From a virus: DNA of 64,000 bases. This document shows, piece after piece, positions 31,856 to 61,238 of this stretch. The stretch covers positions 186,001-250,000 of the IMG/VR virus record IMGVR_UViG_3300020473_000011; one strand, given 5' to 3'. Every line of letters begins with the position of its first letter. The stretch's first letter is position 1. The notes below the pieces were generated by a model that had not been told where the DNA came from, did no database searches, and saw only the letters and a program-made list of their open reading frames with translations. Made by a program: the position numbers and the translations under genes.

Positions 31856-31871
31856 TGATTTGTTCCTTCTG

Positions 31872-32570: not shown

Positions 32571-32578
32571 GACTACCC

Positions 32579-33310: not shown

Positions 33311-33339
33311 TGTATTCTCACGCTCAAAAGGAAAGATTA

Positions 33340-33360
33340 GGGCTGCCTTATTTGCAGCCC
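33340..33360 (-). terminator. Hairpin between paralogues 2 and 3
   Basis: GGGCTGC/GCAGCCC stem with a 7-nt loop; a weak T-run (TAATCTTTCC) follows on the minus strand. It probably attenuates. Confidence 0.5.
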
Positions 33361-33377
33361 TATACGGTTACTTGGTC

Positions 33378-34157: not shown

Positions 34158-34179
34158 TGCAATACCCTTAAAATGGAAA

Positions 34180-34198
34180 AGAGGGTTAGCCCCTCTTA
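34180..34198 (-). terminator. Hairpin between paralogues 1 and 2
   Basis: AAGAGGG/CCCTCTT stem with a 5-nt loop followed by TTCC on the minus strand. It is a weak, attenuator-like structure. Confidence 0.45.
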
Positions 34199-34216
34199 TA
34201 ATTTTGAAAAAATGGA

Positions 34217-34996
34217 TTAACGGCCACCAGCCATGTTAAACACCATGCTACGTGAATCGTTTGAGTGCGCGCCGTAGTTGATCACAACACGGCCATCATC
34301 AAGCTCTTTGGTGTAGTCGACTTTCAGGCGCTTCTCTGCAAACCCTTTGATTTCTTCCATCGGGTCAAGGCGCATGTCCGTCTTGTTCGGATCGTTCGTC
34401 GGCTCGTCGTAGCCCATGTAGTAATCTTGCTTTAGAACAGAGAACTGGCCGTTAGCAATAGCCTTCATCATTGCATCTGCATTCCAACGCTTAGGAAGCT
34501 TAACAAGACGCTTTAGTTTTGCTGCGTTAAATGGGTTAAAGACTTCTTTAGACTTCTGCTCGTAGACATGAATATCAACGCGGCCGCTCTCGGTCTCGAC
34601 GCTGCTTGTTTCAATGTGGTTTACGAAGTCTTCTAATGAACGGTATTCACCACTTGTCGCCAGCTTGTGAAGGTATTCTGATGTAGGCTCATAGCTGCGA
34701 GGAACCGCTGATAGTGAGATTTTCTTACAGGTTTTACCTGCTTTCATACCGTGTTCGATGTCCATGATTTCGATTGAACCCATGTACGCGTGAATACGAT
34801 GCTTACCGTCTTTTGTGTAGATAGTTTGACCGACGCTGATGTCATCAATCTCAGTCAATTCTACGTCTTTGATAATAAGCTTTGAGCTTTGCTTTAGAAG
34901 GTCAAAACGGCGTTCATTTAGTTCTGCTGATTCGCAGAAATCATGAGCTTCTAACTGTTCGGTGACAGCTAGAACCTGTGCGATTCTTGTGGTCAT
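34217..34996 (-). CDS. Tandem paralogue family A, member 1 (259 aa)
   Basis: It is the first of five tandem paralogues. Key segments: MTTRIAQVLAVTEQLEAHDF, ESAELNERRFDLLKQ, FNPFNAAKLKRLVKLPKRW, AIANGQFSVLKQDYYMGYDE. Members 1 and 2 are the same length and share the MGYDEP insertion, so they are the most recent duplicates. It is divergent from arfA, with a TTGTACAA site between them. CTGAGA lies just before the ATG. No family recognised. Confidence 0.75.
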   Translation of the reverse strand: MTTRIAQVLAVTEQLEAHDFCESAELNERRFDLLKQSSKLIIKDVELTEIDDISVGQTIYTKDGKHRIHAYMGSIEIMDIEHGMKAGKTCKKISLSAVPRSYEPTSEYLHKLATSGEYRSLEDFVNHIETSSVETESGRVDIHVYEQKSKEVFNPFNAAKLKRLVKLPKRWNADAMMKAIANGQFSVLKQDYYMGYDEPTNDPNKTDMRLDPMEEIKGFAEKRLKVDYTKELDDGRVVINYGAHSNDSRSMVFNMAGGR

Positions 34997-37526: not shown

Positions 37527-37559
37527 TGACTAGAGCGCGCCCCATCAGTGTTGACAGTT

Positions 37560-37669
37560 TTCTATGGGAATAAATATGGAAACCCTATTGTAATGGGCTT
37601 TATCGGGCGTTTTAGGCGTTTTCCATAGGTTTCCATAGAAATGTGTGGTTTTCGTCAGGATTTTCCATA
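37560..37669. repeat. Left-end TATGGAAA repeat array of the recombinase element
   Basis: TTTCCATA (minus-strand TATGGAAA) occurs at 37620-37627, 37630-37637 and 37662-37669. The opposite orientation TATGGAAA occurs at 37575-37582, with a variant TATGGGAA near 37563. The 37630 copy is within TTTCCATAGAA, which is repeated directly at 44598-44608. These are candidate recombinase binding sites at the element end. Confidence 0.65.
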
Positions 37670-37694
37670 AAAAAGCCAGTCGTTGTGACTGGCT
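37668..37694 (-). terminator. Terminator of the recombinase operon
   Basis: AGCCAGTC/GACTGGCT stem with a 5-nt loop followed by TTTTTTAT on the minus strand, just after the 57-residue gene. Confidence 0.85.
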
Positions 37695-37700
37695 CGTTTA

Positions 37701-37874
37701 CTATTGCTTTTTGGGCTGAGCTAACTTAACGGCTCGTTGTACAATCAAATCGGCTCTCGATGGGGTCACACCATTGGCTTCCTTTGGCTCTACGCCTTTT
37801 ATGTGTGAATGACTATCTACCTCCAAGCTGATACCTGTTAGACTGTCTGTCACGTCGTAAATGCCCTTACTCAT
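37701..37874 (-). CDS. Small protein of the recombinase element, 57 aa
   Basis: ATG 37874 with GAGG 8 nt upstream. The sequence opens MSKGIYDVTDSLTGISLEVD and ends RAVKLAQPKKQ. It starts 5 nt after the stop of the TnpC-like gene, in the same operon, and is followed at once by the terminator. Codons 44-46 contain an exact TTGTACAA (37737-37744), one of only a few copies inside a gene. No family recognised; a directionality factor or regulator is possible but unproven. Confidence 0.6.
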   Translation of the reverse strand: MSKGIYDVTDSLTGISLEVDSHSHIKGVEPKEANGVTPSRADLIVQRAVKLAQPKKQ

Positions 37875-37879
37875 ACTCT

Positions 37880-38311
37880 CTACCTCAAGGCTACTACATT
37901 AGCATGTCTCATCTGTGACTCTAGGTCTGACACCTGACGGCGGCTTACCCATAGCTGATAGACTAGGTTAGCCTCGCGTGTCACTGACTTATCCAGTTCG
38001 GCTTTGTACTCGTCGCGCTCTTCGCGGTAGCGTTCCTTAGCGCCTTCCTGTTCCTTAATATTACTACGATACTTCTCCTTTTGGGTAGGTGTGGCTTGCC
38101 CTGCTTTTTGTTTCGCAGCGTTCTTCAAGTCTTTTATACGCTGAATGACGCTAGGGTAGTGGTAAGCTGTACTTAGGCCAACGCCTGCTTCCTCTTCCAC
38201 TGCCTTAGCCGATAGCTTCCGTTTAGCTTCCACGCGAATAGGCGTACCGCTCTGTATGCGCGTAATCGCGTCAAATAGTTCTCTTTCAGTAGATTCACTC
38301 ATCTTTACCAC
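37880..38311 (-). CDS. TnpC/DUF6262- or GmtX-like accessory protein, 143 aa
   Basis: Residues ~28-60 (LSAKAVEEEAGVGLSTAYHY followed by PSVIQRI) form an HTH of the kind seen in Tn554 TnpC/DUF6262 proteins: an A.EAGVS.S..Y..P..I pattern. The rest is a long charged coiled coil (KERYREERDEYKAELDKS, VYQLWVSRRQ). Such small partners modulate the frequency and orientation of recombination by the two larger recombinases. It starts 4 nt after the third recombinase. GMT elements carry a similar-sized GmtX; which family it is closer to cannot be told here. Confidence 0.65.
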   Translation of the reverse strand: MVKMSESTERELFDAITRIQSGTPIRVEAKRKLSAKAVEEEAGVGLSTAYHYPSVIQRIKDLKNAAKQKAGQATPTQKEKYRSNIKEQEGAKERYREERDEYKAELDKSVTREANLVYQLWVSRRQVSDLESQMRHANVVALR

Positions 38312-38315
38312 CTAA

Positions 38316-40391
38316 TTAGTTCGTGAAAGGTTCAAAAGCTACGTTGGCTTTCTGTAGCATGTGTTCAATCATTTTGATCTGCATCGTGCCTGAGTACATG
38401 ATCAAGTTACCGCCTGCAAAGTCTTCGGCATTCTTTTGGTCGTCACATAGCTCTTTATGAAGGTCTAGTAACAGTTCGAAGCTTTCGTCAGTATAAATCT
38501 GGCTGTCGCAATCCATACAAAGAGCAGGGTTGCTCTCATTGTCCATGTTGCACTTGTAGCCGCTTGAGCAGTAGCCTGCACCTGCCGCATGAATGCTTAT
38601 CTCGCCTTTCTTGATAAGCTTTTTCAGACCTTCCACTGACTGGTACATTTTGGGCATTTTATCACGTGAAGCTACGATGGACTCGCCTTTTTTGCCGTAC
38701 AAGGGCTTGTCTGTATTATACAAGTTGTCTGCAATTTTAGCCTGCATGTTCAAGCGTTCATCTAGGATTTGACTAATAAGCTCTAACTGCGACTTACTAT
38801 CCTTATTCGCGTCAAAGAAACCCGCGAAGGCTGCGTGGTTTGCATAGTGACGCGACATGTCTGCACAAAGATGTTTGAACTGTTGCTTTATGGCAGACAC
38901 CGACGCTAAGTCATGGCGAACTGCAAATACAGCTAAGCTACGGCGCAGTTGATGTAGCGATAATTGCCATACACTACCAACGAGAATTGGGTCTGATGCC
39001 AAAGTTGGATTCAAACGCTTGTACTCTTCTACGTCATCAGCTGTAACGCGGTAGCCGCACGCGTCGCTCACTGCTTGTGTATACTGGCTATTGTGCGCAG
39101 GCAACTCTGTAGGCGGCACACCTGCCCGTTGATTCGCTACCCATAAATGGTCGCGTAGCGTTTCAATCTCCGCAGCTTTAGGGTGACCTTCATCAATGAA
39201 TTTTTGGCAACGGCCTTGAATGGGCTTTGCTAAGATAGCCGCAGTTTCTATGGCCTTTTTAGTGATAGGCGCTGTCACCCAAACATCAGGCGTACCCTGA
39301 TGTGAGTTAGACATCTTATGTGTTACCGACTTAATCAAAGGGACGTTTGTGTTGTTGTAATTTGCGATGTAGTAGCTGTCTGGTTTAATCTCATAGGCGT
39401 CACTACTGCGCATACCCGTATACGCCACACAGGCCACAAAACAAGTTACTTGCGCTCTGTTGTAAAGTACTGTGTAAGCACGGAATAACGCATTAGGTGC
39501 ATTTATCGGTGCTGCAATAGCTTTTAGCTCTTCGTAAAGCTTTGTGCCTTTTAGACCGTCCTCAATGATAGCGCGTGATTCACGGGGTGTACGACTGTTA
39601 ATTGCACGCGCCTTAACCTCGACCCCTTTTTCAATACAAGCAGTTACGCCCGCATCATAATTCTGGTACAGTTCCGCTTGAACACGTGCTAGCACTGAGG
39701 CTTCTGCCCAGTAGCGTTCGATTGAATCGTCTAAGTGATTCAAAAGACTTGCGTAAACGTTCGTAGGCAAGGCAGGGTACTGCCTAATTAGCTGCTTATC
39801 GTCTGCGCCAATTGCCTTGGCGCTCAACGGGTTTACACCTAGTGTTGGAACGCGAAACGGTAATAAGCTCTCTAGGTTCTCTAGGTGCGATAACAGTGCG
39901 TTATAGCCACTTATTGATTGGGCTGATAAGTTCTTACTGGCCAAGTGTACTGCTAGGTTATCAAACACCTGCGTATTGCAAAGGGCTGCAAACGACGAGT
40001 GCTGTTCCTTGTCTAAGAAGGATGCCATGCTTTTAGCGTTAGAAAGCAGCCCTGAGATAGAACCCGCTTTAAGCAGGCGCGTCGATCCCGCTGGTGCTCG
40101 AAGAAACGTGTAGATGATTGACTTAACTTCGGCTCTAAGTGCTGGGTTCTTAATCTTCTCAAAGCGAAAGATCAGCTTATTTCCATTTTTCAGCGATTTC
40201 TGCTGATTCAAGTCCCATATATCATCTGCAAACGTAACTACTTCGCCATTGGGGAAAGCGGCTACGGTGATGCTCTTTTGCTTGTCGTCACTCAGTGGGC
40301 TTTTTAGCTCACCAAGGTTGATAAAATCAACCTTGCCCTCAAAGACTACATTTGCGTCATCTGTGACGTGAAGCTGTGTGGCTGCACCCAT
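38316..40391 (-). CDS. Tyrosine recombinase 3, 691 aa (TnpB/GmtZ-like)
   Basis: All catalytic boxes are visible: TGMR with Arg328, a beta-hairpin THK with Lys359, HQLR with His480 and Arg483, FKHL with His507, and SRHY with nucleophile Tyr516. The N-terminal ~300 residues should be the arm- and core-binding domains. The C-terminal 170 include a Cys cluster (GYCSSGYKCNMDN, then CMDCD) likely to bind zinc. It is much longer than phage integrases (~350-400) and fits the large recombinases of trio elements. It is separated from gene 40393 by one base. Confidence 0.8.
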   Translation of the reverse strand: MGAATQLHVTDDANVVFEGKVDFINLGELKSPLSDDKQKSITVAAFPNGEVVTFADDIWDLNQQKSLKNGNKLIFRFEKIKNPALRAEVKSIIYTFLRAPAGSTRLLKAGSISGLLSNAKSMASFLDKEQHSSFAALCNTQVFDNLAVHLASKNLSAQSISGYNALLSHLENLESLLPFRVPTLGVNPLSAKAIGADDKQLIRQYPALPTNVYASLLNHLDDSIERYWAEASVLARVQAELYQNYDAGVTACIEKGVEVKARAINSRTPRESRAIIEDGLKGTKLYEELKAIAAPINAPNALFRAYTVLYNRAQVTCFVACVAYTGMRSSDAYEIKPDSYYIANYNNTNVPLIKSVTHKMSNSHQGTPDVWVTAPITKKAIETAAILAKPIQGRCQKFIDEGHPKAAEIETLRDHLWVANQRAGVPPTELPAHNSQYTQAVSDACGYRVTADDVEEYKRLNPTLASDPILVGSVWQLSLHQLRRSLAVFAVRHDLASVSAIKQQFKHLCADMSRHYANHAAFAGFFDANKDSKSQLELISQILDERLNMQAKIADNLYNTDKPLYGKKGESIVASRDKMPKMYQSVEGLKKLIKKGEISIHAAGAGYCSSGYKCNMDNESNPALCMDCDSQIYTDESFELLLDLHKELCDDQKNAEDFAGGNLIMYSGTMQIKMIEHMLQKANVAFEPFTN

Positions 40392-40392
40392 C

Positions 40393-42141
40393 CTATACCT
40401 CCAAACTTAGTGTAGATTTCGCGTAGGAACGCCAAAATTTGTGGATTCCTTCGCTGAACAGCTTAGATTCTGCGGCTTTTACGTTATCTTTAACGAACAA
40501 AGCAAGCAGGCTCTCAATTCTTGCCAACAACTTACCCTTTGATTTCTCGAAGTGGTCGGCATCCTTGTACTTACTTGAAGACGCAAGAACGACTTCTTTG
40601 TAAGACAACAATTGGTAGGCATCGTCGATAGTGTCAACTAGCGCATAGTTGCTGCACGTTAGGCAGCTATCAAACATCGTACACGGCATTTCCTCAGCAC
40701 TGGCTAGACCAAGCTTCTCAAGGATAGGCGCATGTTTGCGTTGTGATTTAGTTGGGTTTGCACCCTCATACGGGTTAGAACAACGACCGCCCGATGGTAC
40801 AGCCTCATTCTTTTTGTACTTCTGGTTTATGGCATCCAGCGGTAGTAGCTCAATACCAAGCTCGTCAGCAAGTTCTTGCTTGGCCTCGTCGACCGTCAAA
40901 CCCTTACCGAGTTTACTTAATACTGTGATGGCTGCGTGTGACTGCTCGTAGTTCTCCGCTTCGTTACCACTGCCGAGGTAGTGCTCAACTGCGACGCCTG
41001 TTGAGTGCCCAGCGTCTTTTGCAGCGGCTACGATACCTGCTGCTCTGGTAGCTGTTTGGAAACGGTTTTTACGGAAGCGCTCGGCACTAAGCATTAGCTT
41101 GGAACCATCGTCAGCCTGTACCTTAAAATGTCTGAATAACATATCAGACACAGCGGTGATGAAGTTCATCACAGGCTGAACAATCTTGCCGTTGACTTGT
41201 AAGAAACTAAATAACTTCCCATCAGCTGCGGGATTATGCTTTGTATTCTCTAACAGTAGCTCTACCAGTGCTATCTCACGAGGTGTAGACATTAAGCGCG
41301 AAACATCATGGTTCGCACGTGCTTTATGCGCATTGATCTCATAGACTGTGCTCGACTTAGATTTTTTGCGCGTGATACAGTCAATTGTTAGGCTCTGCAA
41401 TACAGCCGTATTTAGACCTGTGTATAGCGATAAGCGGAACATGCCTAGGGTACTTAATAGCCACCAAGCTGTCCCTTTAGCCTCTGGTACGTTATAAGAA
41501 AAATTGCGGTCATTAGCCCTCAAACTAAACGTGCTACCGTTAGGGTTGGCTTTCAATTGCTTAGACAGCTGGTCGTGCAAGTCACAAACCGCTTTCTTTA
41601 GGCAGCGTTGCTCGGTCTGAGAGTAAGCGCGGCGTACCTCACGACCACCACGTTTAACAAAAGGCGGCGTGGCTCCTATGATCGGCTTAGGGTCAATACC
41701 CGCGACCACCAGTAGCTTCTTGTAAGCTGACCAGTCCCCCCATGCGGTTGATTGCTTGTAGCGTACCCGAGGGTCACGTACTTTTTGAGTCCAGTACTCA
41801 ATGACCGCGTTACCACCTTCTGGTGAATCTAGGCTTACTTCTAATTCGTCACTTAGGGCTGTGAGTTTGCACCAGCGCTTATACGTTGACTTAATAGTGC
41901 TTGCGCTATTTGTCGCTGTCGTAACCCATTCCCATAATGCGTTAACGATGTGCTGGCGTGCTGGCACAAGCTCAGCATGCACGTCGCAATTTAGATGGTA
42001 AAGATGTGATACAGCCACTTCGTAATTTTCCCCGCTTGGAAGCGTTACCTTACGCGATTGTGCGTGCATTGGTAAAGCCAGCGCTGTAGGCTTACTCGGG
42101 GCTTTTAAACTTGATGCACGTGATCGACTAATTCTTCGCAT
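40393..42141 (-). CDS. Tyrosine recombinase 2, 582 aa, with altered box I
   Basis: Recognisable boxes: TGLN at 241-244 where active enzymes have TGxR, a THK-like NAHK with Lys273, RFRKNR around 355-360 in place of HxxR, GHS with His379, and EHY with Tyr388. The first catalytic Arg is therefore replaced by Asn, so it may be a non-catalytic partner or use a shifted residue. A C-terminal Cys group (MPCTMFDSCLTCSNY) suggests a zinc site. It starts 14 nt inside the 3' end of gene 42128, indicating translational coupling. Confidence 0.75.
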   Translation of the reverse strand: MRRISRSRASSLKAPSKPTALALPMHAQSRKVTLPSGENYEVAVSHLYHLNCDVHAELVPARQHIVNALWEWVTTATNSASTIKSTYKRWCKLTALSDELEVSLDSPEGGNAVIEYWTQKVRDPRVRYKQSTAWGDWSAYKKLLVVAGIDPKPIIGATPPFVKRGGREVRRAYSQTEQRCLKKAVCDLHDQLSKQLKANPNGSTFSLRANDRNFSYNVPEAKGTAWWLLSTLGMFRLSLYTGLNTAVLQSLTIDCITRKKSKSSTVYEINAHKARANHDVSRLMSTPREIALVELLLENTKHNPAADGKLFSFLQVNGKIVQPVMNFITAVSDMLFRHFKVQADDGSKLMLSAERFRKNRFQTATRAAGIVAAAKDAGHSTGVAVEHYLGSGNEAENYEQSHAAITVLSKLGKGLTVDEAKQELADELGIELLPLDAINQKYKKNEAVPSGGRCSNPYEGANPTKSQRKHAPILEKLGLASAEEMPCTMFDSCLTCSNYALVDTIDDAYQLLSYKEVVLASSSKYKDADHFEKSKGKLLARIESLLALFVKDNVKAAESKLFSEGIHKFWRSYAKSTLSLEV

Positions 42142-43399
42142 GACCTTCCCCTAGTAAAGCTATTTCAAGTTCACGGTCACGAGCCTCAGCGATGTATCGT
42201 GCTGCGTCGTTACCATTTACGAAGTCTAGGTAGTCCATTAAGGTTTTAACGTCCTCGTGACCCATCCAGCGCTGTAGAACACTAAGCGCACTGCCACTGT
42301 TCATTGTTTCCAATAGCTCAGATAGGCGGTGTGTTGCATACGTCGAGCGTAAATCGTGGAATGAATACTCGAATGGGTTTGAGGTTTCGGCGCGTATCAG
42401 GTCAACCACGCGACGAAAGCCTTTGTACGCAGCTGACTGACCGAAGCCTAGACCTTTCTGAGTAATGAATAATGGTATGTTACCGCCGTCAAACGCGTCG
42501 CTTGCTTCAAATAGCGCACGGCGCTTCTTGTGTTTCTCTGATGAGCGGTAATCTAAAAGTTTGTTGTTTAACCAGTCAGGCATTTCGATTGGGCGGTCTT
42601 TGTTGCCCTTAGTTTCGTTACCACCTGTACTTAAACCAATCCAGACTTCGTTACCACCTGATAGCTTAGCGTCGACTAATTTCTCTGTGTACGTAGCAAC
42701 TTCGGTAATACGCATGCCTGTAAACAACGACAGCTGAACCATCAATTGAGTTTCTTCGTTTGCACGTACTAGGTAATCCCCCAATAAGCGTAGGTCTGAC
42801 AAGGTTAAAGGACGTAGCACACGACCCCCTTGTTTCTTACCACCGACAATACGTAGGTCAGTACTATCAACCACAATTTTCTTAGTGGCCATCGTATCGC
42901 TTTTAAGGTTGTGGGTGAGTGATTCACAGCGGAATGGGGCGCGGCGTTGGTCATATTCGAATACGCCCTCATACAGCGCCCATTTGTAAAAACTCACGAC
43001 AACATTCATGTAGCTTTTAGCTGTAGACGCAGCTAACGTACCGCCATCAACGGCAGCTTGCAGCGTATCTCTGAAAACGTAAGTAGGGCGCGTAGACGGC
43101 GTCGTACCAAACGTAAACCAATCAAAGTTGTTAATCTCTAAGAATCGGCAGTAGAAGAGTAAAGCTGTAGCTGTACTAGATAAACTCTTTAGGTTCTTAC
43201 GCAGCTTACGGTCGAAGAAGTACATCACCGCCTCTTGAACGATTTCACCTTCTCCATTGAATAAAACTGGGAACCTATCAATCGTACGTGATACCTCATC
43301 GCTGAACACGGCCAACAGTTCGCCAGCGTCTTCTGTGATCTCAACCGATTTATGCAACGGCATATCGGTAATCCAATGTAGGTAAGCTTCTTGTGTCAT
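42128..43399 (-). CDS. Tyrosine recombinase 1, 423 aa (TnpA/GmtY-like)
   Basis: A complete tyrosine recombinase: Arg230 in TGMRITE, Lys264 in ETKGNKDRP, His348 and Arg351 in FHDLRSTYATH, His381 in WMGHED, and Tyr390 in LMDYL. An N-terminal SAM-like domain (ATALLFYCRFLEINNFDWF, MNVVVSFYKWAL) precedes the catalytic part. The size is that of ordinary phage integrases. Start and stop overlap with both neighbours (ATGA with gene 43396). It is the most likely strand-exchange enzyme of the element. Confidence 0.9.
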   Translation of the reverse strand: MTQEAYLHWITDMPLHKSVEITEDAGELLAVFSDEVSRTIDRFPVLFNGEGEIVQEAVMYFFDRKLRKNLKSLSSTATALLFYCRFLEINNFDWFTFGTTPSTRPTYVFRDTLQAAVDGGTLAASTAKSYMNVVVSFYKWALYEGVFEYDQRRAPFRCESLTHNLKSDTMATKKIVVDSTDLRIVGGKKQGGRVLRPLTLSDLRLLGDYLVRANEETQLMVQLSLFTGMRITEVATYTEKLVDAKLSGGNEVWIGLSTGGNETKGNKDRPIEMPDWLNNKLLDYRSSEKHKKRRALFEASDAFDGGNIPLFITQKGLGFGQSAAYKGFRRVVDLIRAETSNPFEYSFHDLRSTYATHRLSELLETMNSGSALSVLQRWMGHEDVKTLMDYLDFVNGNDAARYIAEARDRELEIALLGEGHAKN

Positions 43400-44523
43400 A
43401 CTACTGCTGCCTTTTTAAAGTCGTCTAGTGTCCAAGTATCAAAGTAGCCTTCGTTACCGTCACCCTCACAGGCCGCATAGGCCATCTGGCCGTAGCCATA
43501 ACAGTTGAACTCACAATTAACGAGGTCGGCACTATCGGCAAGGTCAGTGTGTGTTTTACGGTCGTATTCTTCCATGCCCATTGCTTGGATGGGGCACTCT
43601 TCGTCACAGCCTTCTGGCGTTATTAAATGGTTATCTTTTACGTAGGTTTCCATGACGCGTTGCGTGGCGTCGCCGAAGACTCCCGCTACGAACTCTTCGC
43701 GCGTTTCAGTACGCATACCGCTGCCTGATTCAAAGGTTGGAACGTCTAAGCCTGTGTTAGATTCGAAGAACTCAAGGTACGTCGTTATGTTGTCTTTTAG
43801 CGGCTCACCTGTACGCTTGGCGTAAGTCGATTTGTCGTAACCTGTGTCACGAAAGTCGCTCTCTACGTACTCAGCGCCTGACCATTCTTTAATAACGGCG
43901 AGTATAAATTTTTGACGGAAGCCGTCTTTGTTTTCGGGATCGACGTACTTAGTAAGGATTGCGTGCAGCTCGTCGAAATGGTCTGCCGTGACTTCAATAG
44001 GCTGCTCACTTGCTGCTTGAAAGTCGTTGAATGTCCAGTCTTGAAAGTCAGCATTCTCAACAAAGCTATCCCGTAGGGCAGTGCCTAGTTGCGTGTAGCC
44101 CACAAAAATTGACTCTAACGCTAATTCTTCGGCATCTGTTTCAGCTTCGGCTCCCATAATGTACTTGTGAGCTTCTTCGTGATTTAAAGGACGCTTTTTG
44201 TCGTATGACATGCCCAAAAAGTTTTTACGCACATAGTGCTGAACAAAGCTACTCGTTAGTGAATGTAGGAACTGGTAGACCGCCTCGTCGTAGCGTAGGT
44301 ACTGACGGCATAGGTCTGTGAGATATACGTCGGGACGTACGTCACTTTCCATTAAGCATAGTTCTTTGAATGTCGTAGCATCGTCGGCATCTGGCCATAC
44401 TTCTGTAACGTAGCTAACAAACTTTTGGAATGCGAAGCCTTTCTTACCTGTTTCGTAAAACTTAGCTAGTCCAGCTTCTATCTTTTCTAAATCTTCTAAC
44501 GTAACGACTCTTAACGTGGTCAT
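43396..44523 (-). CDS. First gene of the recombinase element, unknown, 375 aa
   Basis: No recombinase boxes are seen. It is acidic and helical, and contains two related blocks: an early VYLTDLCRQYLRYDEAVYQF and a later YLEFFESNTGL region. At the C-terminus are spaced cysteines (CDEECPIQ, then NCEFNCYGYG, then AACEGD) resembling the Cys clusters at the ends of two of the recombinases. It leads the operon behind the TTGTAA/TATAAT promoter. It may be a DNA-binding partner or cargo; I do not know the family. Confidence 0.7.
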   Translation of the reverse strand: MTTLRVVTLEDLEKIEAGLAKFYETGKKGFAFQKFVSYVTEVWPDADDATTFKELCLMESDVRPDVYLTDLCRQYLRYDEAVYQFLHSLTSSFVQHYVRKNFLGMSYDKKRPLNHEEAHKYIMGAEAETDAEELALESIFVGYTQLGTALRDSFVENADFQDWTFNDFQAASEQPIEVTADHFDELHAILTKYVDPENKDGFRQKFILAVIKEWSGAEYVESDFRDTGYDKSTYAKRTGEPLKDNITTYLEFFESNTGLDVPTFESGSGMRTETREEFVAGVFGDATQRVMETYVKDNHLITPEGCDEECPIQAMGMEEYDRKTHTDLADSADLVNCEFNCYGYGQMAYAACEGDGNEGYFDTWTLDDFKKAAVV

Positions 44524-44554
44524 AGGAATACTCTAAAGCTACATCAATAACTTT

Positions 44555-44608
44555 ATTATATTCCATACTTTCCATAATTACAATAAGGCTACATTACTTT
44601 CCATAGAA
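44555..44608 (-). promoter_or_regulatory. Right end of the recombinase element: promoter inside the TATGGAAA array
   Basis: TTGTAA (44578-44583) and TATAAT (44555-44560) are 17 nt apart on the minus strand. The spacer is made of TATGGAAA (44569-44576) and TATGGAA (44561-44567). A third copy, TTTCCATAGAA at 44598-44608, abuts the stop codon of the giant gene. Recombinase bound to the end should therefore also repress its own operon. Confidence 0.7.
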
Positions 44609-47600
44609 TTAGGCTAGGTTACCCCATATAACGTACCCGTATTCGGTATCTCCCAGCGTATAACGGCGATATAGCCAGCTACCGTCATCAGGGTCTCTGT
44701 ACAGGATAGGCTCAACCACACCGTTTCGTATTGCCTCGATCATAGCTGCACGTGGTGAGTAAGTTCCTCGTGCTGTTCCGTTTTGCACTTTCTCGATCAA
44801 CTCTTCACGGTACTTAGTACGCAAGTCACGTAACCACTGCATCAGGTCAATCTGAACGATACCTGCCTTATAGCGTCGGAAGTCCTCACTTCGGAACTTA
44901 ATAGGCAAGTTAACATCAACCCTGTCATGGAACGGCAATGGCTTCATAAGTGAGTAGTCGATGCTATCAAGCACAGTGGCCATATCAACAGCATACTCTA
45001 CAAACAGGTCATCAGACTTAGCCACGGCCGCTTGCTTATAGCGGTCAATAATATCGAACGTTGGAAGAATATTACCGACTAGCTTCGCGTAGTCAGCCGT
45101 GTCCATCGGCTTCATCATACGGTAGTGCATGTTCGCAACAGGGTCACTGAGCAGGTACTGCTCGTAAGCTTGGCCAACGGCATTCACCATATCTTGGTAA
45201 CTCGCGTACTTAGAGTGCAGCACGCCACCTGCTTCGGCACCTGTTGCCTGTGCGTACGCTTCATCAATACGCGCGTCACTCAAGCCCATTGCCTTCAATG
45301 AACTGTAGAGCGAAGCAAGACCTTGCTCGTACTGCTCGTACAGACGGTCTAAGCGTTTTGCACTCACAGACTCTTGGTCATACTCGTCGTACAACGCAGT
45401 GTCACCTAGGTTAGACTGATCGAACTTATTGTAGCTCTCCGTGTCGCCTAGCCCTGCTTGTGCTACATCGGCGAATAGCTCGCCTTGCCCTAGCTGATAC
45501 TGTTTCAGGCGCATGTAGTGTGCCTTTGACACCTCTTTTGCTTGTGCAAAGAACATATCAGCTTGTGTAACGCTTAACCCAGCTTGCAGTAGTGCATTGT
45601 AGATTTCAGGCGCAACCAAGTCAGACTGTACTAGCTTGTTGTAAATAGCGCTGTCGCTTTCCAGTGATTGCTTGTAGCTCTGGTATGAGTCTGTTGTCTC
45701 TGCCAGCGCTTGACGCATAGCATGGTAGAACTCCGTCATACTCTCAGGCTTTTGTGCATACCACTGATTACCAAACCAGTTCTCGCGCATGACCTTAACG
45801 ACCTCGTCGTGCTCTTTCTCAGACAAGGCGACCTTTTGTTGTTTGAAGTCCCAGTGGTCGATAGCCACTTCGGTCAAGTTTGCGACCCACTTCTGGTATA
45901 GCTGACTTTCGCTCGGCGCAGCAAGTCTCTCAAAATCAAGACTATCAGCCAGCTTTGTGATCGTCTTGCGTAGCACAATCTCAATCTTCTTCGCGATACT
46001 CGACACATTCTGTGGATTAATACGCTTCATATCTGTAATGCGTATATCCGACGATGATACCTTGTCCCGCAACCCGATTGGTCGGTCGTTCAACAGACTG
46101 TAGCCACGGCCATCACGTCGCATCGCTATCCAAAAGTCGGTCGACACTATATCGCGTATTGGTACATACGCCTTGTTGGCTGCATGACCCAGTGGCACAC
46201 CCACTGGGAGTGATAAGCTATAGGCCGTTGACGTTGGACGTACATGCGGTGTAAAGCGCTTTTTAATGTCCGTCTTTGTCGCCATTTCTGACGTCAGTGT
46301 TTGATAGAACTTAGTGTGTGTTGCGTAACGGCTTTCACTTAGCTGGTGGTAGCCCGTACCACTAAATACTTCGCTGTAGTTGTCCAGCTGTTCAAAATGG
46401 ATCGCGTTAGAGAATACGTCGAACGGTGACCACTTCGTGTAGGTCACATCAGCATTAACATACTCTGACTCTATGCGGATAAAATCTTTATTCACGTAGT
46501 CATGCGCTTGTGCATTACGCAAGCGTATTACATCGGTAATTTTCACGTCTGGACGCGTCCGTACATCTTGGTCATACCGACGGTTCACGTCGACAGCTGA
46601 GACCTCAAGCTGCACCGAGTGGATAATACGACTTAACGTATGTTGGTCGTAGCGCTGTGTCCATTTTGGTAAACGGTAGTTCTCCACAAATGTTCGGGTA
46701 GGGATGACCCAGCGGTCAGTCTCAACCGTAACAGGTATACGTTGACCCATCGCACTTTGTTTGTACAGTACGGATGAACCCACGCCTTTTATTTGGTCGA
46801 GCATCTTAACCCACGCACTACCTACAATGCTGATTGATGGCGCTGTCGGCATCATAACTTGATGGTAGCGTGCGCCCTGCATCATTGGTGCCGCATGCTG
46901 CTGAGGTTTGACCCATTGCTCACCCGTCATACGCACAGCTGTGCTGGTGGTCGGATTAACCTGCTTAGTCAGAATATCTTGTGACAAACTCAATGAGTCC
47001 GTTTTCTTCTTGATAAGCTCAAGCTCTTGGGTTCCCATTATCTGGTCTGTACTTGCACGGTACGGCGACTGTATATGACTGCGCCCTAAGCTCTGCGAGA
47101 TATGACCGTAGTCTTGCAACCAGTTCGGCAGCCCATAAGGGAACGTATGGCGGAATTTAGGGAACCAGTACTCAGCCTTTTGAGACAGCGTACTTCTAAA
47201 GCCCGTCAGTGAATCGAACTTAACTTCTTGTAGGTTAAGACTCGCCTTAGCAACTTTCATTTCAATACTTTTCAGACGCATAGAGTCTGCTTGCGACCAC
47301 GGGGTCAGCTCTATTCGCTGAGTTACATAGCGCGTCAGTGCCTTTCGGCCATTGATGAGCTGTAGTGACCCCGATACATGGAAATCACTCTTAGTCATCG
47401 TCAGTGCAAACGGCTGGAACTTCGACATGTATGTCGTGCTCATGAATTTACCGTCACGTGGCTTATAACCCTTCACGGTCTTAACGCGCATGTGTCGCCC
47501 AAGTGCATCAGTCACACTCGGGATCTTCATGTGCTTGTAATGCTCCGTCGTTGCTTTCTCCATCTGAGCACCTGCCATCGCTAAGTGGAAGTCCGTTGCT

Positions 47601-50600
47601 TTTGCAAGGTCAACCGCTGCAAACTTTGGATTAAACCCACGCAGTACTTCAAGTGCTACATCAGTCAGGACAGGATTCTCGGCATAGCCTTCCTTCACGG
47701 CCATCGTTTCGTGCAAGTTGATCAGGGGCTGCATTACTTTTGAGTGTGCGTCGGCTAAGCGTATCGTCGTTCCAAACACTTCACTTGTCGTGTCAATTTT
47801 TGGCACGTTGTCCATCGTGATCTTAATCAATTCGACGGCAGTCTCCATCGTGTTGATTTGCAGCTTAGTGCCCGTAACATCAGCTAAATACTTAGCCCAG
47901 CGCATAACAACCGACTCGACATGCTTCATTGCAAGGCTGTGCGGTTCCATCACAAGCATAGCAACGTCGTTCATGATGGCATTGTATGAGGTTTCCGATT
48001 GCATTAGCACATCATTCATCGCCTTGATTTGACTACCTGCAATATTAAAGTTAGCCACTTCTGGTAACTGCTCTACAAAGTTGTCCATCAGCCTCATGTG
48101 AGTTGTTTGAAGTCCTGCTATCTCCATTGAAGACTCTTTACTCAGCGTCACCTTATTTTGCAGCGCACGTTGTGCAAGTCTATTTAGTAATACAGCCTGT
48201 TCAAGTATAGTAAGAGCATCTTGGTTTTGGTAGTTAACGCCAATTTCTTTCGTGAGCTGACGGTCGCGAACAAGCAGCAAGCGCTCGCCTAAGTGTGCTG
48301 CATAGCTCGTTAGGCTCGCCAGCGACACATTGTTTAGCTCTGTACGAATGTGACCACCACGCGTTAGTTTTGCACTGCCCTGTAGCTCAGTTGTTTTGAC
48401 TGTGCTTAACGGCAAACCATCCTCATAATGCGTCTGGCCACCTGCAACGCGTGTGTACAACAAGCCATCGGCCGTCGTGTCTTGTGACATTACGACGGTA
48501 GACGCGACGCCGTGCTCAATCGCTTGTCGTAGCGTCTGGTACTCGACAGTTGTCTCGACTAAATTTGACGCATAGTCAGTGCCTGCCACGACTGAGGCAT
48601 CGCTACTTAGGCGCGACGTACGCTGAACGGCCGAAGTTTCAATACGGTCTACCCAATAGCGCACCGATGGCTCTGACGTTAGTGTGACCGCCTTAACGTG
48701 TTTACGGTTAAGGTCATGACCTTGACGGTGATAGATGTCCTGCTGTGTGCTACTAAGTTTAGACGTAACCAGCTGTGTACCAACTTGCACATTAGTCCAT
48801 GATGCTTTCGTAAATGGCAGCTCTTCGCGGTGTGCTGATATTGAATCGGCCGTAACCAGCTTAATTAGCTCATCAATCGTAATACCGACTTTATCTAGCT
48901 TGAAGTTAACTAAGTCAGAGAGCACGCGGCTATTCTTGTCGACCTTAGTGAAGACACCTTTTGGTATGGCTTTCAGTTGGCTAAACGCCCAATCGACTAG
49001 ATTAGACTTTACAGCTTTAAGCCAGTCATTCGTATTGTAGGCGACTGCCTCAGCCTCAATATTGCTAACAGCATCGCGGCCAATCAGCACCGCATTTATC
49101 TGTGTTGAGGTATTTGATTTAGTCTCAAAATCAACACCATTCAATACACGCGTAATCCCTGAGTCTATGGCTAGTTGGGCACTGTCCATTAAAGTTGTGG
49201 ATGCGTGCAGGGCAGTGTCTAGTGTCTGTGTGTTCTTTGGCGAAATTGCTTGCGAGCGTATCAGTTTCACAAGGTCTTGGTAGTACGTTGACCCCGAAAT
49301 CACGTCCATACCCACAGGTTGTGGGAACATCGGCACGCCAGCTCTTTGAACATCAAAGTTACTTGCTGTTAGTGAATAGTTCTCGACCTCTATGATACGC
49401 AGGTCTACCTTGTTCTCTACGCGGGTGAATGGCTGTAGCGTGAACGCCTGACCCTTAACAAGTTCAGCACCTGTCTTAGCGCCACGCGCCACAAGCGTTG
49501 ACGACTTACTCGTGCCTAGGAAGCCCTGCACGCGCAGTGGTACCGTGCTAAAGCGGTTAATGGAAGTCTGCGCCATGTAGTATTCTAGAACGCTCTCAGC
49601 CTCACTACGGGCTTCGGTAAGGCGCAGAGGAACCACATTAAGTGACACCTTCGTTTCACCCATAGCAAAAGGTACTGCGTCCATAAAGCCACTACGGCTC
49701 TTTTCAACAGTGAACGTTAAGCGGTCAGTCCTTGTGCTCATACCACTGACTTTATGCAGTTGCAGCGTATTCTCTTTGGTTGACGCTTTGTGCTTCCCGA
49801 ATGGGATCAGGCGTGCTTCACTTGAGAACAGATAGCCCATCTTATTTAGGTCTATCGTTGTGGCGAACTTCTTAATCGTGTGGTTAACGTAACCTAGCCC
49901 TTTTGCTTGCGCTAAGGTTGAGCGGTGTACACGGCTGGGTATTTTTAACCCATCGCTATAATTCCACGCCGATCCTGATTGCATTTCAAAGGGTACAACC
50001 TGTGCTTGTGCTACACGATTGCCCGTGCCCACATCAAACGCTGCGCGCTGCCACTTGTAGGCTGCATCACGGAAAAGTCGCAGGGCGACTGTCGAGATAA
50101 AACCGCTTTGACTGTTCAGTGTAAAGGTGACATCGTCGTCAGCGACTGACGACCGAGCTAACGCATTGTATAACAGCTCAATTGTGCTTGAGAATGCGTT
50201 ACTCTCGCGTGCATCATAGCTTACCGTTTCAGGTAGACTGCTTGTAAGGTACGCTGCCGTTAAAAACTTGACTAGTTCCGCCGCAGGGACATCCTGATCG
50301 TCTCTAACGAGATTGATTATGTCTGTCCCAGCGGTGCTCAAGCGTGACATTAAGTAGCTCACGTCCTCGGCACTATCAGACGACAACAATGCCCGTGTGA
50401 AGCGTACTTTATCGACCCCCGAGTCAATTGACCAATTGCTCAGTACTTCGTAAAAAAGCTCAGCTACGTCACTTGTTCCTTTTGCTTGAGAAAAGACCAG
50501 CTTTTGTGCAGCTGGCATATTGCCGCCATTATCCAGACGGGTATTAATCCCCACCACATCATTTGAGGTGCCCACAGGCTTAGGCACTAGCGGATCAGTC

Positions 50601-53600
50601 GGTGCTGATGTTCGTGGTGCATTACGGCCATTCATAGGGTCGGCCGCCGCAGAGGTCGGAAACCCTCTGTTAGCCAGTATCGCATCGGCCATCGACGCTG
50701 TTGTGCTGCCTACTAAGTTGAAATTGAAGGATAGCGGGGCTTCCATCATGATGCGGTCAAGCGCATAACGTATAGCATACTTTAGCTCTTGTAATGCGTT
50801 TTGATTCGTCACTATATAGCGTAGTGTGTCGGCTATATGCGATTTAGTAGCACTTACCTTGAAGAGCTGAACCAAGTGGTTTGACGCATGAAGCGACAAG
50901 GCACTTGTTGGCGCATAGCCAAGTGCGTCGGGTGCCGTGAAAGTATAGAGCTGCACAGGGTACGCCAGCATAGGCTCCGCGTATTGCATGCCACGACCTG
51001 TCACCGTCATGTTAACGTGCTTAGCGTCTCTCATGCGGTTAGCCGTCACTTGTAGGGCACTCATCGGCGCGCCTACCTTTGAGGTTAGGTGGCTTAGCTC
51101 TGCCATGGTCAGCTTTGTCGAGGCAAATGCGCGGTTGCTTTCTACGTACGAAGCTAACCAGCGGTCTATTTTATCTTTCCCAGACCAGACACTACGTGTG
51201 GCATACGTACTATCAAAACCAGCTAGCGGTGCTTTAACACGCCATGATTTAATAACTTGTGAAAGTCCCAGTCTGTTCGTCTTAGTGAATGCCGAGCGTA
51301 GAGCCTCTAGCACGGTTTCCCCATGCGAAGAGGCTGACGAGGTGCCCTTTGTATCACCTTGAAAGTCTGAACTACGGTGGAGTGATGCAAGCACTGTGTC
51401 ATACCCCATCGCGATATGACGGCGAGCATGCGTGTAGTACTGCTGGTCGTAACCTAATACCTCTTTTCGCTGGTATTGGCCAGCCACAAAAAGGCCATCA
51501 AAGGCTTGAAAGGGTACCTGATAGCGAATACCCCTCATATCTTCGTCAGCAATAGAGATTGCACGCTTATCGCCTGTGAATAAAGCTGCTTGAGTCATGC
51601 TCTTTCGTGACGGGTAGGCCGCGCCGTATGACGCATTAGCACCCTCGTGGATAGACCTCGATACAAACGTAAAAGTCCATGTCTTGTAGGCAAGTCTACC
51701 CGCCAGCGTATTCAGTCCAATAAAGTACTGAACATCCGAATACGTCATCACGTTATGATAAGTACGTGATGCAATTGTTCGATTGGTTTCACCGTTAGAC
51801 AGTGCGCGACTGTAGTCAATATCTTGTGAAAAGCTGGTGCCTCGTTGCATTCCCTCAGAGTTAAGTAACTGGCGCTGAGCCGAGCGACTGTAGAGCATCA
51901 TCATGCGCATGAACGGATCAGCCGTTGCTGCTTGCGTACCATGTATACCTGTTTTTGTGCTGTAACCCGAACGTGAAGTAAATTGACGCGCTAGGTAGGC
52001 GTGAGCCGTGTTTGCCCAGTTCCGAATGCTTGTCTGCTGGATCTCAAACTTAAAGTTACCCACGGACAAGTCAACGTTCGACCTTAATAGCTTGTAGGAC
52101 GCATCCATCGTGCGCACTGTTACGGTACTACCCAAGGCGTAGTTATGTTTGTTCGCATGGTGTGCTGAACTACTTTGCATTACACGTGCTGAGTTATCAT
52201 TTGTTTCATGGGATGTCTGGTAAAGGCCAACCATTGCATTTGTGTTCGTACTCGCACGCGTAGACGGGGCGGAGATACCCACACGTTGAGGCTTAGCCTT
52301 GTAGTTGTCCCAAAAACCAGTCGTTAGCCTGACGTGGCGAACTTGGTCAACAGCGAAGCTTGGGATCTCAGGCGTCTTGTTCAAATCAGACGTCGACAGG
52401 TAGCATCGTATTTGATAACCCGTAAGTGTTCCATCTGCTGGTAACTGCTGTGGCTCGTTAGAGTATTCGGTGTACTTAGTTGTTAAAGACGATTGGTCAC
52501 GATACTGTAGGCGGAACTCCGTAAGTACCGAGGTGCCCGTCGGTATGACTGAATACAACGACGGTTCAACGCTCTGAATAACACGAAGAGACTCTACCTT
52601 AATGACATCAGATTCAAAGCTACCCACCCAGAAGCCACTCGCTTCCACAGGGTCTGATAGAAATAGGCGCTTTTGGCCATCGCTATCATACTGGAAGTCT
52701 GTGCCTTTCATTTCACCGTGAATGTCATCATGTAACGCTACTTCATCAACAGGCTCGTAGACTTCGACTCGGCTCCTGAAATGAAGGCCATCCATCACGT
52801 TGTACTGACGCTCAAGTCGCAATTCTTCATCAGTTACCCATGCAACCTGCGTGCTTGACTCCGTACCTTCGCTATCGGTAACAACCAATGTGCTGCCGTC
52901 ACTAACAACCAATAATGGGTCACCGTCATGCCCTAGTGAAAAAGATTGGCTCTCGTAGTGCTCGCCCACAAGGCAATCACTAACACTCGGTAGATTAAAA
53001 TAATCCGCCTTTTCTTCAAATAATATAACGGTCTCTGGTTGCTCACTATTAACTGCACCGTTAGTCTTCTCAATAGACTGGATGACCGTTGAGACCTCTG
53101 CACCATCAGGCTCGCTGATGGCGACCATCGTCACGACATAATTACCATGCCATGTGCTGTAGTAACCTTTGCGCTGCACGACGATTGGGTCTTCGTTTAG
53201 GGTCTCTGATTCTACGCTGTATAAATCAACAAGTAGCGAGCTGGCAAGGTCTAAGCAGTAAACTTCACCCGTAACCCGTGCCGAGAAAACAACTAAAGAA
53301 TTGTGAGCGTAAGCATGACCCACCTCGAAAGGAAGGGGCACCTCTTCAACGGTAAACTCGTCAAATGAAATAAAGTAAACAGCCGTCGTTGATACCGCAA
53401 CAATGCTACGAGAATAACCAAGCCACATTACGTGGTTTATATCGGCAACACCCTCTACGTAACGAAATGGCGCAAAGACAAGGCAGCCATCAGGATCTTG
53501 CTGTACATAGAATACATCAATATGATTGCGAGTATTTCCTACCACCCACAACAGGTCTTCTGCCCACACGACATCGGTTGCAGGGTCGGAGAGGGTGATC

Positions 53601-53935
53601 GTTTGTTGATGCTCAAGGGTTGGAGAGAAGACCTCAATGGTTCCTCGGTCGGTCAGGACTAAGACAACCTCTTTGCCTTCAATTGTACCGCTTATGGCAC
53701 GCTTAGGGGCGTCGACCTCGACCACATAAACAATGTCATGGCCAAGCGGTGTTACGGCAACCACGTAGTTCTCAGCATGGTTATGCAGATACACGAGTCC
53801 TCTGTTATCGGGTATAACAGGCGCAACAAGCTGGTCTTTTTTATTAGACCACCATGACCACTTACGGTCTAAATCGTCTACAAACGCTCTTAATTGAAGC
53901 GCGTCAATGCTTTCTCTTACACTCAAACTCGTCAC
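44609..53935 (-). CDS. Giant virion-like protein, 3108 aa
   Basis: The frame starts at a GTG at 53935 next to ATTGAGAC. Residues ~35-330 are strand-rich with propeller-like repeats (NYVVAVTPLGHDIVYVVEVD; KEVVLVLTDRGTIEVFSP). The remaining ~2,600 residues are Ser/Thr/Ala-rich and contain no cysteine, whereas the first ~525 have four. Near residues 2740-2900 are ~20-residue helical repeats such as DSAIYNKLVQSDL and DTALYDEYDQES. The C-terminus is IRNGVVEPILYRDPDDGSWL and beyond. It is likely a long fibre or tail-tip component. The recombinase element lies directly at its stop codon. Confidence 0.75.
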   Translation of the reverse strand: MTSLSVRESIDALQLRAFVDDLDRKWSWWSNKKDQLVAPVIPDNRGLVYLHNHAENYVVAVTPLGHDIVYVVEVDAPKRAISGTIEGKEVVLVLTDRGTIEVFSPTLEHQQTITLSDPATDVVWAEDLLWVVGNTRNHIDVFYVQQDPDGCLVFAPFRYVEGVADINHVMWLGYSRSIVAVSTTAVYFISFDEFTVEEVPLPFEVGHAYAHNSLVVFSARVTGEVYCLDLASSLLVDLYSVESETLNEDPIVVQRKGYYSTWHGNYVVTMVAISEPDGAEVSTVIQSIEKTNGAVNSEQPETVILFEEKADYFNLPSVSDCLVGEHYESQSFSLGHDGDPLLVVSDGSTLVVTDSEGTESSTQVAWVTDEELRLERQYNVMDGLHFRSRVEVYEPVDEVALHDDIHGEMKGTDFQYDSDGQKRLFLSDPVEASGFWVGSFESDVIKVESLRVIQSVEPSLYSVIPTGTSVLTEFRLQYRDQSSLTTKYTEYSNEPQQLPADGTLTGYQIRCYLSTSDLNKTPEIPSFAVDQVRHVRLTTGFWDNYKAKPQRVGISAPSTRASTNTNAMVGLYQTSHETNDNSARVMQSSSAHHANKHNYALGSTVTVRTMDASYKLLRSNVDLSVGNFKFEIQQTSIRNWANTAHAYLARQFTSRSGYSTKTGIHGTQAATADPFMRMMMLYSRSAQRQLLNSEGMQRGTSFSQDIDYSRALSNGETNRTIASRTYHNVMTYSDVQYFIGLNTLAGRLAYKTWTFTFVSRSIHEGANASYGAAYPSRKSMTQAALFTGDKRAISIADEDMRGIRYQVPFQAFDGLFVAGQYQRKEVLGYDQQYYTHARRHIAMGYDTVLASLHRSSDFQGDTKGTSSASSHGETVLEALRSAFTKTNRLGLSQVIKSWRVKAPLAGFDSTYATRSVWSGKDKIDRWLASYVESNRAFASTKLTMAELSHLTSKVGAPMSALQVTANRMRDAKHVNMTVTGRGMQYAEPMLAYPVQLYTFTAPDALGYAPTSALSLHASNHLVQLFKVSATKSHIADTLRYIVTNQNALQELKYAIRYALDRIMMEAPLSFNFNLVGSTTASMADAILANRGFPTSAAADPMNGRNAPRTSAPTDPLVPKPVGTSNDVVGINTRLDNGGNMPAAQKLVFSQAKGTSDVAELFYEVLSNWSIDSGVDKVRFTRALLSSDSAEDVSYLMSRLSTAGTDIINLVRDDQDVPAAELVKFLTAAYLTSSLPETVSYDARESNAFSSTIELLYNALARSSVADDDVTFTLNSQSGFISTVALRLFRDAAYKWQRAAFDVGTGNRVAQAQVVPFEMQSGSAWNYSDGLKIPSRVHRSTLAQAKGLGYVNHTIKKFATTIDLNKMGYLFSSEARLIPFGKHKASTKENTLQLHKVSGMSTRTDRLTFTVEKSRSGFMDAVPFAMGETKVSLNVVPLRLTEARSEAESVLEYYMAQTSINRFSTVPLRVQGFLGTSKSSTLVARGAKTGAELVKGQAFTLQPFTRVENKVDLRIIEVENYSLTASNFDVQRAGVPMFPQPVGMDVISGSTYYQDLVKLIRSQAISPKNTQTLDTALHASTTLMDSAQLAIDSGITRVLNGVDFETKSNTSTQINAVLIGRDAVSNIEAEAVAYNTNDWLKAVKSNLVDWAFSQLKAIPKGVFTKVDKNSRVLSDLVNFKLDKVGITIDELIKLVTADSISAHREELPFTKASWTNVQVGTQLVTSKLSSTQQDIYHRQGHDLNRKHVKAVTLTSEPSVRYWVDRIETSAVQRTSRLSSDASVVAGTDYASNLVETTVEYQTLRQAIEHGVASTVVMSQDTTADGLLYTRVAGGQTHYEDGLPLSTVKTTELQGSAKLTRGGHIRTELNNVSLASLTSYAAHLGERLLLVRDRQLTKEIGVNYQNQDALTILEQAVLLNRLAQRALQNKVTLSKESSMEIAGLQTTHMRLMDNFVEQLPEVANFNIAGSQIKAMNDVLMQSETSYNAIMNDVAMLVMEPHSLAMKHVESVVMRWAKYLADVTGTKLQINTMETAVELIKITMDNVPKIDTTSEVFGTTIRLADAHSKVMQPLINLHETMAVKEGYAENPVLTDVALEVLRGFNPKFAAVDLAKATDFHLAMAGAQMEKATTEHYKHMKIPSVTDALGRHMRVKTVKGYKPRDGKFMSTTYMSKFQPFALTMTKSDFHVSGSLQLINGRKALTRYVTQRIELTPWSQADSMRLKSIEMKVAKASLNLQEVKFDSLTGFRSTLSQKAEYWFPKFRHTFPYGLPNWLQDYGHISQSLGRSHIQSPYRASTDQIMGTQELELIKKKTDSLSLSQDILTKQVNPTTSTAVRMTGEQWVKPQQHAAPMMQGARYHQVMMPTAPSISIVGSAWVKMLDQIKGVGSSVLYKQSAMGQRIPVTVETDRWVIPTRTFVENYRLPKWTQRYDQHTLSRIIHSVQLEVSAVDVNRRYDQDVRTRPDVKITDVIRLRNAQAHDYVNKDFIRIESEYVNADVTYTKWSPFDVFSNAIHFEQLDNYSEVFSGTGYHQLSESRYATHTKFYQTLTSEMATKTDIKKRFTPHVRPTSTAYSLSLPVGVPLGHAANKAYVPIRDIVSTDFWIAMRRDGRGYSLLNDRPIGLRDKVSSSDIRITDMKRINPQNVSSIAKKIEIVLRKTITKLADSLDFERLAAPSESQLYQKWVANLTEVAIDHWDFKQQKVALSEKEHDEVVKVMRENWFGNQWYAQKPESMTEFYHAMRQALAETTDSYQSYKQSLESDSAIYNKLVQSDLVAPEIYNALLQAGLSVTQADMFFAQAKEVSKAHYMRLKQYQLGQGELFADVAQAGLGDTESYNKFDQSNLGDTALYDEYDQESVSAKRLDRLYEQYEQGLASLYSSLKAMGLSDARIDEAYAQATGAEAGGVLHSKYASYQDMVNAVGQAYEQYLLSDPVANMHYRMMKPMDTADYAKLVGNILPTFDIIDRYKQAAVAKSDDLFVEYAVDMATVLDSIDYSLMKPLPFHDRVDVNLPIKFRSEDFRRYKAGIVQIDLMQWLRDLRTKYREELIEKVQNGTARGTYSPRAAMIEAIRNGVVEPILYRDPDDGSWLYRRYTLGDTEYGYVIWGNLA

Positions 53936-55374: not shown

Positions 55375-55388
55375 TGTCTCACCTCAAC

Positions 55389-57305: not shown

Positions 57306-57377
57306 TGCTCATTTCCTCGTTACTTTAGTCTCAGCACCATTGATACGGCGATACTGCAATCTCAGGTGTAGTTATGA

Positions 57378-57407
57378 TTGTACAACGGATGTGCAGGCGT
57401 TGTACAA
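57378..57407 (-). promoter_or_regulatory. Paired TTGTACAA sites before gene 55389
   Basis: Exact copies at 57378-57385 and 57400-57407, 22 bp (two helical turns) apart. GCTGAGAC lies downstream, before the start codon. Confidence 0.6.
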
Positions 57408-57493
57408 CGGAGACTATAAAAAACTTACAAGAAGCAACCTAGGGAAAAACTGCACACTAGGCCACTTCGTCAATTAATACCTTAAAACGTTCT

Positions 57494-58840: not shown

Positions 58841-58854
58841 TAGTCAGCCCCTTC

Positions 58855-60321: not shown

Positions 60322-60333
60322 CCATTGATGCCG

Positions 60334-61230: not shown

Positions 61231-61238
61231 GCTCTGCC

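Follow-up and report, generated by a model that had tools for sequence, protein, structure and literature searches.

A stretch of 64,000 nt from a virus, bases 186,001–250,000 of the continuous 281,557-bp IMG/VR record IMGVR_UViG_3300020473_000011 (hereafter the window), carries on its minus strand, at 37.55–44.62 kb, a single operon with the gene order orf375-IntA-Tfp-IntB-Srap-orf57. In all likelihood this region is a minimal, cargo-poor member of the strand-biased circularizing integrative elements (SEs), integrated in the genome of a contractile-tailed, 281-kb myovirus whose tail sheath, baseplate and spike genes, sheath-like paralogues and tRNAs also lie in the window. The core of SEs is intA-tfp-intB-srap, as in SE-6283 and SE-6945 from Vibrio alfacsensis (PMC9345347, PMC10214605). 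The assignment is carried by gene content and order, by homology and catalytic residues, by repeats shared with bacterial SEs and by the way in which bacterial relatives sit at the 3′ ends of genes. An earlier, sequence-only reading of the window had recognized a recombinase-trio mobile element and likened it to Tn554 and RIT; the first part holds, and homology and synteny point to SE, rather than Tn554 or RIT, as the specific family.

Open reading frames (ORFs) and alignments bear out the three tandem recombinase genes of that reading, two with complete catalytic sets and one with Asn for the first Arg, and ORF calls equally confirm its TnpC-like helix-turn-helix (HTH) and coiled-coil helper and two genes of unassigned function in the same operon. 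IntA alone among the operon proteins passes a Pfam cut-off, the others being identified by alignment to SE proteins. In tblastn searches against plasmids, IntA and Tfp matched the same loci, the list for Tfp including pSEA1 of Vibrio 04Ya108, which carries SE-6283; the loci inspected, SE-6283 included, contain the four core genes in the phage order and with similar sizes. Identity to the plasmid SE proteins was 31–34 % for IntA (E to 6e-55), 24–27 % for Tfp (E to 4e-25) and 28–36 % for Srap (E to 5e-17), and IntB (E to 4e-74 in the pairwise scores) was 30 % identical over 611 aa to its counterpart from a Shewanella plasmid SE (E = 2e-75). Against SE-6283, the E values were 1e-17 for IntA, 7e-10 for Tfp, 2e-20 for IntB and 2e-5 for Srap. 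Since the proteins of SE-6283 and SE-6945 are themselves only 20–27 % alike (PMC9345347), identities of 24–36 % are normal within the family.

Alignments with SE homologues show that IntA (R230, H348, R351, H381 and Y390) and IntB (R328, H480, R483, H507 and Y516) keep complete R..K..HxxR..H..Y sets. The Asn at the first-Arg position of Tfp is invariant in the phage protein and in all five bacterial homologues aligned, and therefore characterizes the Tfp family rather than signalling decay. The phage element presents the four-gene operon order, the RHRY residues in IntA and IntB and the imperfect terminal inverted repeats by which SEs are recognized.

The IntB alignment, run against 84,980 genomes of bacteria and archaea, yielded 185 relatives, of which 80 were kept for inspection. 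The order intA-tfp-intB-srap was present in most of these 80 loci, from Vibrio, Shewanella, Alteromonas, Aeromonas, Photobacterium, Pseudomonas, Psychrobacter and other genera. SEs on plasmids of Shewanella sp. LC6, Alteromonas mediterranea UM8, V. parahaemolyticus (pHLA) and Vibrio sp. MAO6 share with the phage element the gene order, near-identical gene sizes and proteins 24–36 % alike, but they lack an orf375-type gene and reside on bacterial plasmids, and many related SEs carry cargo. The phage element resembles SE-6283 and SE-6945 in gene order, in an operon of overlapping or nearly abutting genes at one end, and in having one ordinary and one large recombinase together with Srap. It is homologous to SE-6283 in all four proteins, and SE-6283 likewise lies in a gene near its end (bcp); nevertheless, identity is ca. 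24–29 %, and the phage element has the additional orf375, no recognizable cargo and a phage genome as its location.

The IntB alignment found one match among 2.9 million viral contigs (scans of this collection may exclude the window's own record), a distant trio from a Pseudomonas phage, and the IntA scan of these contigs returned two ordinary integrases without tfp, intB or srap. With tblastn against 50,697 phage genomes, IntA and Tfp had no match and IntB had two distant ones. The Pseudomonas trio, from vB_PaeS-D14H (BK061480; positions 2187–7427 of locus L007, and IMG/VR locus L009), also has three recombinase genes and a small HTH protein in one operon of a phage-labelled record, but its IntB is only 22 % identical and it forms a very distant branch; PrtN-like and nuclease genes lie near it, and the trio may belong to that phage or be an inserted, GInt-like set. 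In trees of concatenated proteins the lineage of the window's element is a deep branch of its own, with a sister group that varies by method (support 62). We found no SE inserted in a phage genome in the literature searched, a limited library. SE-type elements have so far been described only from bacterial chromosomes and plasmids, and the feature is best filed with them as a divergent, deep-branching variant in a new type of host, the phage genome.

Repeat arrays at both ends, another feature of the earlier reading, are present: of the eight copies of TATGGAAA in the window, six are at the two element ends, and these six are among 16 in the 281 kb. They match the subterminal repeats of bacterial SEs. 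In 52 bacterial members, [CAT]TGGAAA occurs 46 times 5′ of intA, against 2.9 expected, and TCTGGAAA/TATGGAAA repeats precede intA in plasmid SEs. The exact direct repeats TTTCCATAGAA previously taken to flank the element do exist, at 37630 and 44598, 6,968 bp apart; with up to one mismatch, this 11-mer occurs five times in the window (0.86 expected), a count reached in none of 100 shuffles. Nevertheless, as att core or element ends they were rejected, because in bacterial relatives repeats of this sort lie internal to the ends; the copy at 37630 is ca. 75 bp inside, and the pair are inner recombinase-arm repeats. A 6,968-bp circle, as proposed from them, consequently gives way to a predicted circle of ca. 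7,071 bp. The outermost pair of repeats is inverted, not direct, with TTCTATGGGAA at 37560 and TTCTATGGAAA at 44598 on the other strand (TTCTATGGRAA). The terminal inverted repeat is imperfect, 32–35 bp long, and was equalled in 4 of 2,000 shuffles; in itself it is modest.

Insertion sites were readable in the bacterial relatives. In 30 of the 46 bacterial loci with a readable upstream gene, that gene ends in ...EEFVTM or ...EEFVTL, with the stop 0–2 codons further on, at the element border. This gene is gor, for glutathione-disulfide reductase (NCBIfam), whereas elements of the SE-6283 type lie in the thiol peroxidase gene bcp. Free gor ends in ...EEFVTMR. The inserted element thus provides its target gene with a new stop codon and spares it. 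With thirty bacterial members there, gor seems to be one of the main integration hotspots of SE-type elements. The second border could be located with further DNA in Shewanella waksmanii, Aeromonas cavernicola and V. aestuarianus, where the last gor codons recur past a 6-bp attR spacer that differs from the attL spacer (attL/attR, in the same order, TTACTA/TTACCA, TTACCC/TGACAC and TTACCA/ATACCA). Differing 6-bp spacers at attL and attR are the rule in SEs (PMC9345347, PMC10214605).

The phage borders were set by the spacing of the bacterial SEs. Members of the clade with TGTAGATC ends have their first T[CA]TGGAA exactly 12 bp from the element end (11 of 11), and at attR the element ends 22–23 bp past the last TTTCCA[GT]A (3 of 3); we applied distances of 12 bp (attL) and 22 bp (attR) to the phage (Table 1). 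As GTAACC also resembles GTTACC of gor, a shift of ca. 2–3 bp is possible. The earlier reading also placed the element correctly, among phage tail genes and against the 3′ end of a gene, which is a large one for a 3,108-aa protein; the description of that gene as structural, however, derives only from its place among tail genes, because scans of domain and family libraries gave no family match. The element does adjoin the stop codon, with the amendment that its own end probably supplies the last two codons and the stop: most likely, by analogy with the bacterial borders, the phage contributes ...VIWGN and the element LA-stop. When the flanks are joined as an aid to reading, the frame of the hypothetical target stays open for 14 further codons, and the empty phage site is predicted to read ...TTATATGGGGTAACGATGGGGCGCGC... 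The predicted joint of the circle is ...CCCATAGAAAACTGTC-GGTAAC-CTAGCCTAATTCTATGG...

Table 1. Features of the predicted element and of two phage genes in the window (window coordinates).
Feature	Coordinates	Strand	Basis or remarks
Predicted whole element	37553..44617	(-)	attL (44.6 kb) to attR (37.55 kb); ca. 7,065 bp, ±3 bp per end
Predicted attL spacer, 6 bp	44618..44623	(-)	sense GGTAAC, could be TAACCT; within last codons of 3,108-aa gene; analogy with TTACYA of gor SEs
Predicted attR spacer, 6 bp	37547..37552	(-)	sense AACACT; placed by spacing
attL end	44555..44617	(-)	outer motif CTAGCCTAATTCTATGGAAAG, three TATGGAA repeats (44561, 44570, 44599), promoter
attR end	37553..37669		four TATGGAAA repeats, 37575 (+), 37620, 37630 and 37662 (-); inverted terminal motif TTCTATGGGAA at 37560
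Leader hairpin directly before orf375	44521..44580	(-)	-16.7 kcal/mol, z -5.1
orf375, first operon gene, function unassigned	43396..44523	(-)	shares four bases with intA (stop/start overlap)
IntA, tyrosine recombinase, 423 aa, complete catalytic set	42128..43399	(-)	PF00589, E = 7e-11; alignment to SE IntA
Tfp, recombinase-fold protein, 582 aa, first catalytic Arg replaced by Asn	40393..42141	(-)	alignment to SE Tfp
IntB, large tyrosine recombinase, 691 aa, complete catalytic set	38316..40391	(-)	alignment to SE IntB
Srap-like protein, 143 aa, HTH and coiled coil	37880..38311	(-)	alignment to SE Srap
orf57, small ORF 3′ of srap, function unassigned	37701..37874	(-)	ORF call
Terminator-like hairpin and T run closing the operon	37673..37695	(-)	before attR end
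3,108-aa phage gene adjoining the element	44609..53935	(-)	C-terminus ...YGYVIWGNLA*; final codons CTA GCC TAA, by prediction part of the element
Tail sheath	25543-27420		PF04984 and phrog_23

The genes of the operon overlap by 4 and 14 bp or are otherwise separated by gaps of 1–5 bp. A sigma-70-like promoter (TTGTAA-17-TATAAT, 44583–44555) lies inside the attL end and overlaps its inner repeats, and, together with the terminator before attR, it brackets the whole operon; promoter-like matches as a class were not enriched in the element region. A hairpin comparable to that of the phage leader (z < -2) is found directly before intA in 29 of 57 bacterial SE leaders. Strong hairpins of this kind, in many cases with a T run behind them, may be an attenuator shared across the family. 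Gene orf375 had no relative by family, sequence or structure in any collection searched, its single-sequence AlphaFold model was unusable (pLDDT 38), and no gene of this type is present in the annotated bacterial SE operons inspected. Its location between the family control region and intA is as though it had been added within the operon. No cargo gene could be identified in the element.

By analogy with known SEs, the terminal motifs and, further in, the subterminal TATGGAAA repeats would serve as binding sites for IntA, Tfp, IntB and Srap, and the two ends would be joined with a 6-bp spacer to produce a double-stranded circle by copy-out, leaving the donor site occupied. The circle would then insert at a short target sequence located where a gene reaches its very 3′ end, and the element end would supply the last codons and the stop, so that the target gene would stay functional; this would explain why an insertion is tolerated at a giant phage gene. 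The promoter within attL and the leader hairpin would drive, and probably limit, expression of the operon, and protein binding at the repeats that overlap the promoter may also restrict transcription.

Several observations weigh against a mobile SE in this phage. The empty site was not found, as neither INPHARED nor IMG/VR holds a sufficiently close phage relative. Single-protein scans gave no close relatives of Tfp, IntA, the 3,108-aa protein or the sheath-like protein, and there were no matches in a search for near DNA among phages, in a degenerate scan for the C-terminus YGYVIWGN or in an alignment of the left-flank paralogues. In phages identified as kin through the phrog_1735 protein, neither the 3,108-aa protein nor the sheath-like protein nor IntB found a match, and hence no empty site could be read in them. 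The imperfect terminal inverted repeat is one that shuffled sequence occasionally reproduces, the record contains a single copy of the element, and the position of its long branch in the SE family varies with the tree method. Finally, base composition gave no sign of recent arrival: in tetranucleotide composition the element does not leave the range of the phage (0.143 vs. 0.134 ± 0.014). This argues against a chimeric contig and against very recent arrival from compositionally different DNA, and would equally fit long residence or domestication.

Domestication would imply a recombination system owned by the phage, that is, an SE operon captured long ago and kept, for example, for genome recombination or resolution while no longer moving. 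The phage-like composition, the lack of identifiable cargo, a first gene (orf375) without homologues and the deep isolated branch are all in its favour. However, composition alone cannot separate a captured system from a mobile SE and cargo-free SEs do exist in bacteria (SE-AmaTe101, 6,353 bp; PMC10214605), while all active-site residues are intact and both ends retain repeats and spacing of the family type, which makes this explanation improbable. It is still harder to reconcile the element with another family. Tn554 also combines two recombinases with a TnpC-like helper, leaves a 6-bp footprint and is site-specific (PMC10214605); compared by its description, it consists of TnpA, TnpB and TnpC only, from Firmicutes, and has no counterpart of Tfp, of which the phage element has a homologue. 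RIT elements have three recombinases of 315–410 aa, all with the catalytic Tyr, and no Srap (PMC10214605), as opposed to 423, 582 and 691 aa plus Srap here. GInt likewise has four core genes, and its GinC and GinD are described as clustering apart from SE Tfp and Srap (PMC10214605). In spite of a general layout of large recombinases with a small HTH and coiled-coil protein, membership of Tn554, RIT, GInt or Gamma-Mobile-Trio instead of SE is very unlikely, the phage Tfp and Srap matching SE proteins directly; the name Gamma-Mobile-Trio, for elements with GmtY, GmtX and GmtZ proteins, may overlap with SE.

A bacterial SE wrongly joined to a phage contig during assembly deserves mention because the record is from a viral contig collection and there is no second copy to confirm the junctions. 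Such a chimera is extremely improbable, with the composition of the element inside the phage's own spread, both borders within one continuous record and no bacterial locus in the collections closer than ca. 24–36 %. An integrated SE is the preferred explanation.

The phage itself has other peculiarities. Besides the Pfam-recognized sheath gene, six consecutive genes (window 54154–63007, starting at 54154, 55389, 57494, 58855, 60334 and 61928) match phrog_12249, annotated as tail sheath, which is an unusual expansion; distant relatives of the sheath-like protein occur in phages of Pseudomonas, Erwinia and Dickeya. Five tandem, diverged paralogues of 232–259 aa and unassigned family (window 31115–34996) have no relatives among viral contigs. 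A cluster of eight tRNAs (Ser, Leu, Ser, Glu, Thr, Met, Ala and Asp) lies at window 12756–16768. The phrog_1735 protein (677 aa; 53.4–55.5 kb of the phage genome, L109 13418–15451) far exceeds in conservation the other proteins seen in this phage, being ca. 50 % identical to proteins in many of ca. 500 myovirus genomes, where it is sometimes annotated as RNA polymerase. A search for the terminase with PF17289 gave no match.

SEs carry antibiotic resistance and other cargo in Gammaproteobacteria, their known hosts so far, and have no known transfer machinery of their own; their known carriers are plasmids and, in one case, an integrative and conjugative element. Among the carriers still missing from this list may be giant phages, which would offer a second, testable route of transfer. 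Giant phages are already linked to the movement of integrase islands between cells by jumbo-phage transduced islands such as I55 (PMC12595487), although that island has its site in the bacterial genome, at tmRNA, and is transported by the phage particle, whereas the element described here is part of the phage genome. The system is also compact, and its 7 kb allow the sharing of work among three recombinase-fold proteins and Srap to be tested. It is conceivable, if on the doubtful side, that the element represents an SE lineage adapted to giant phages, using phage genes as insertion sites, with orf375 added and travelling from bacterium to bacterium in virions. If true, elements thought to lack any transfer route of their own would have a natural vehicle in jumbo phages.

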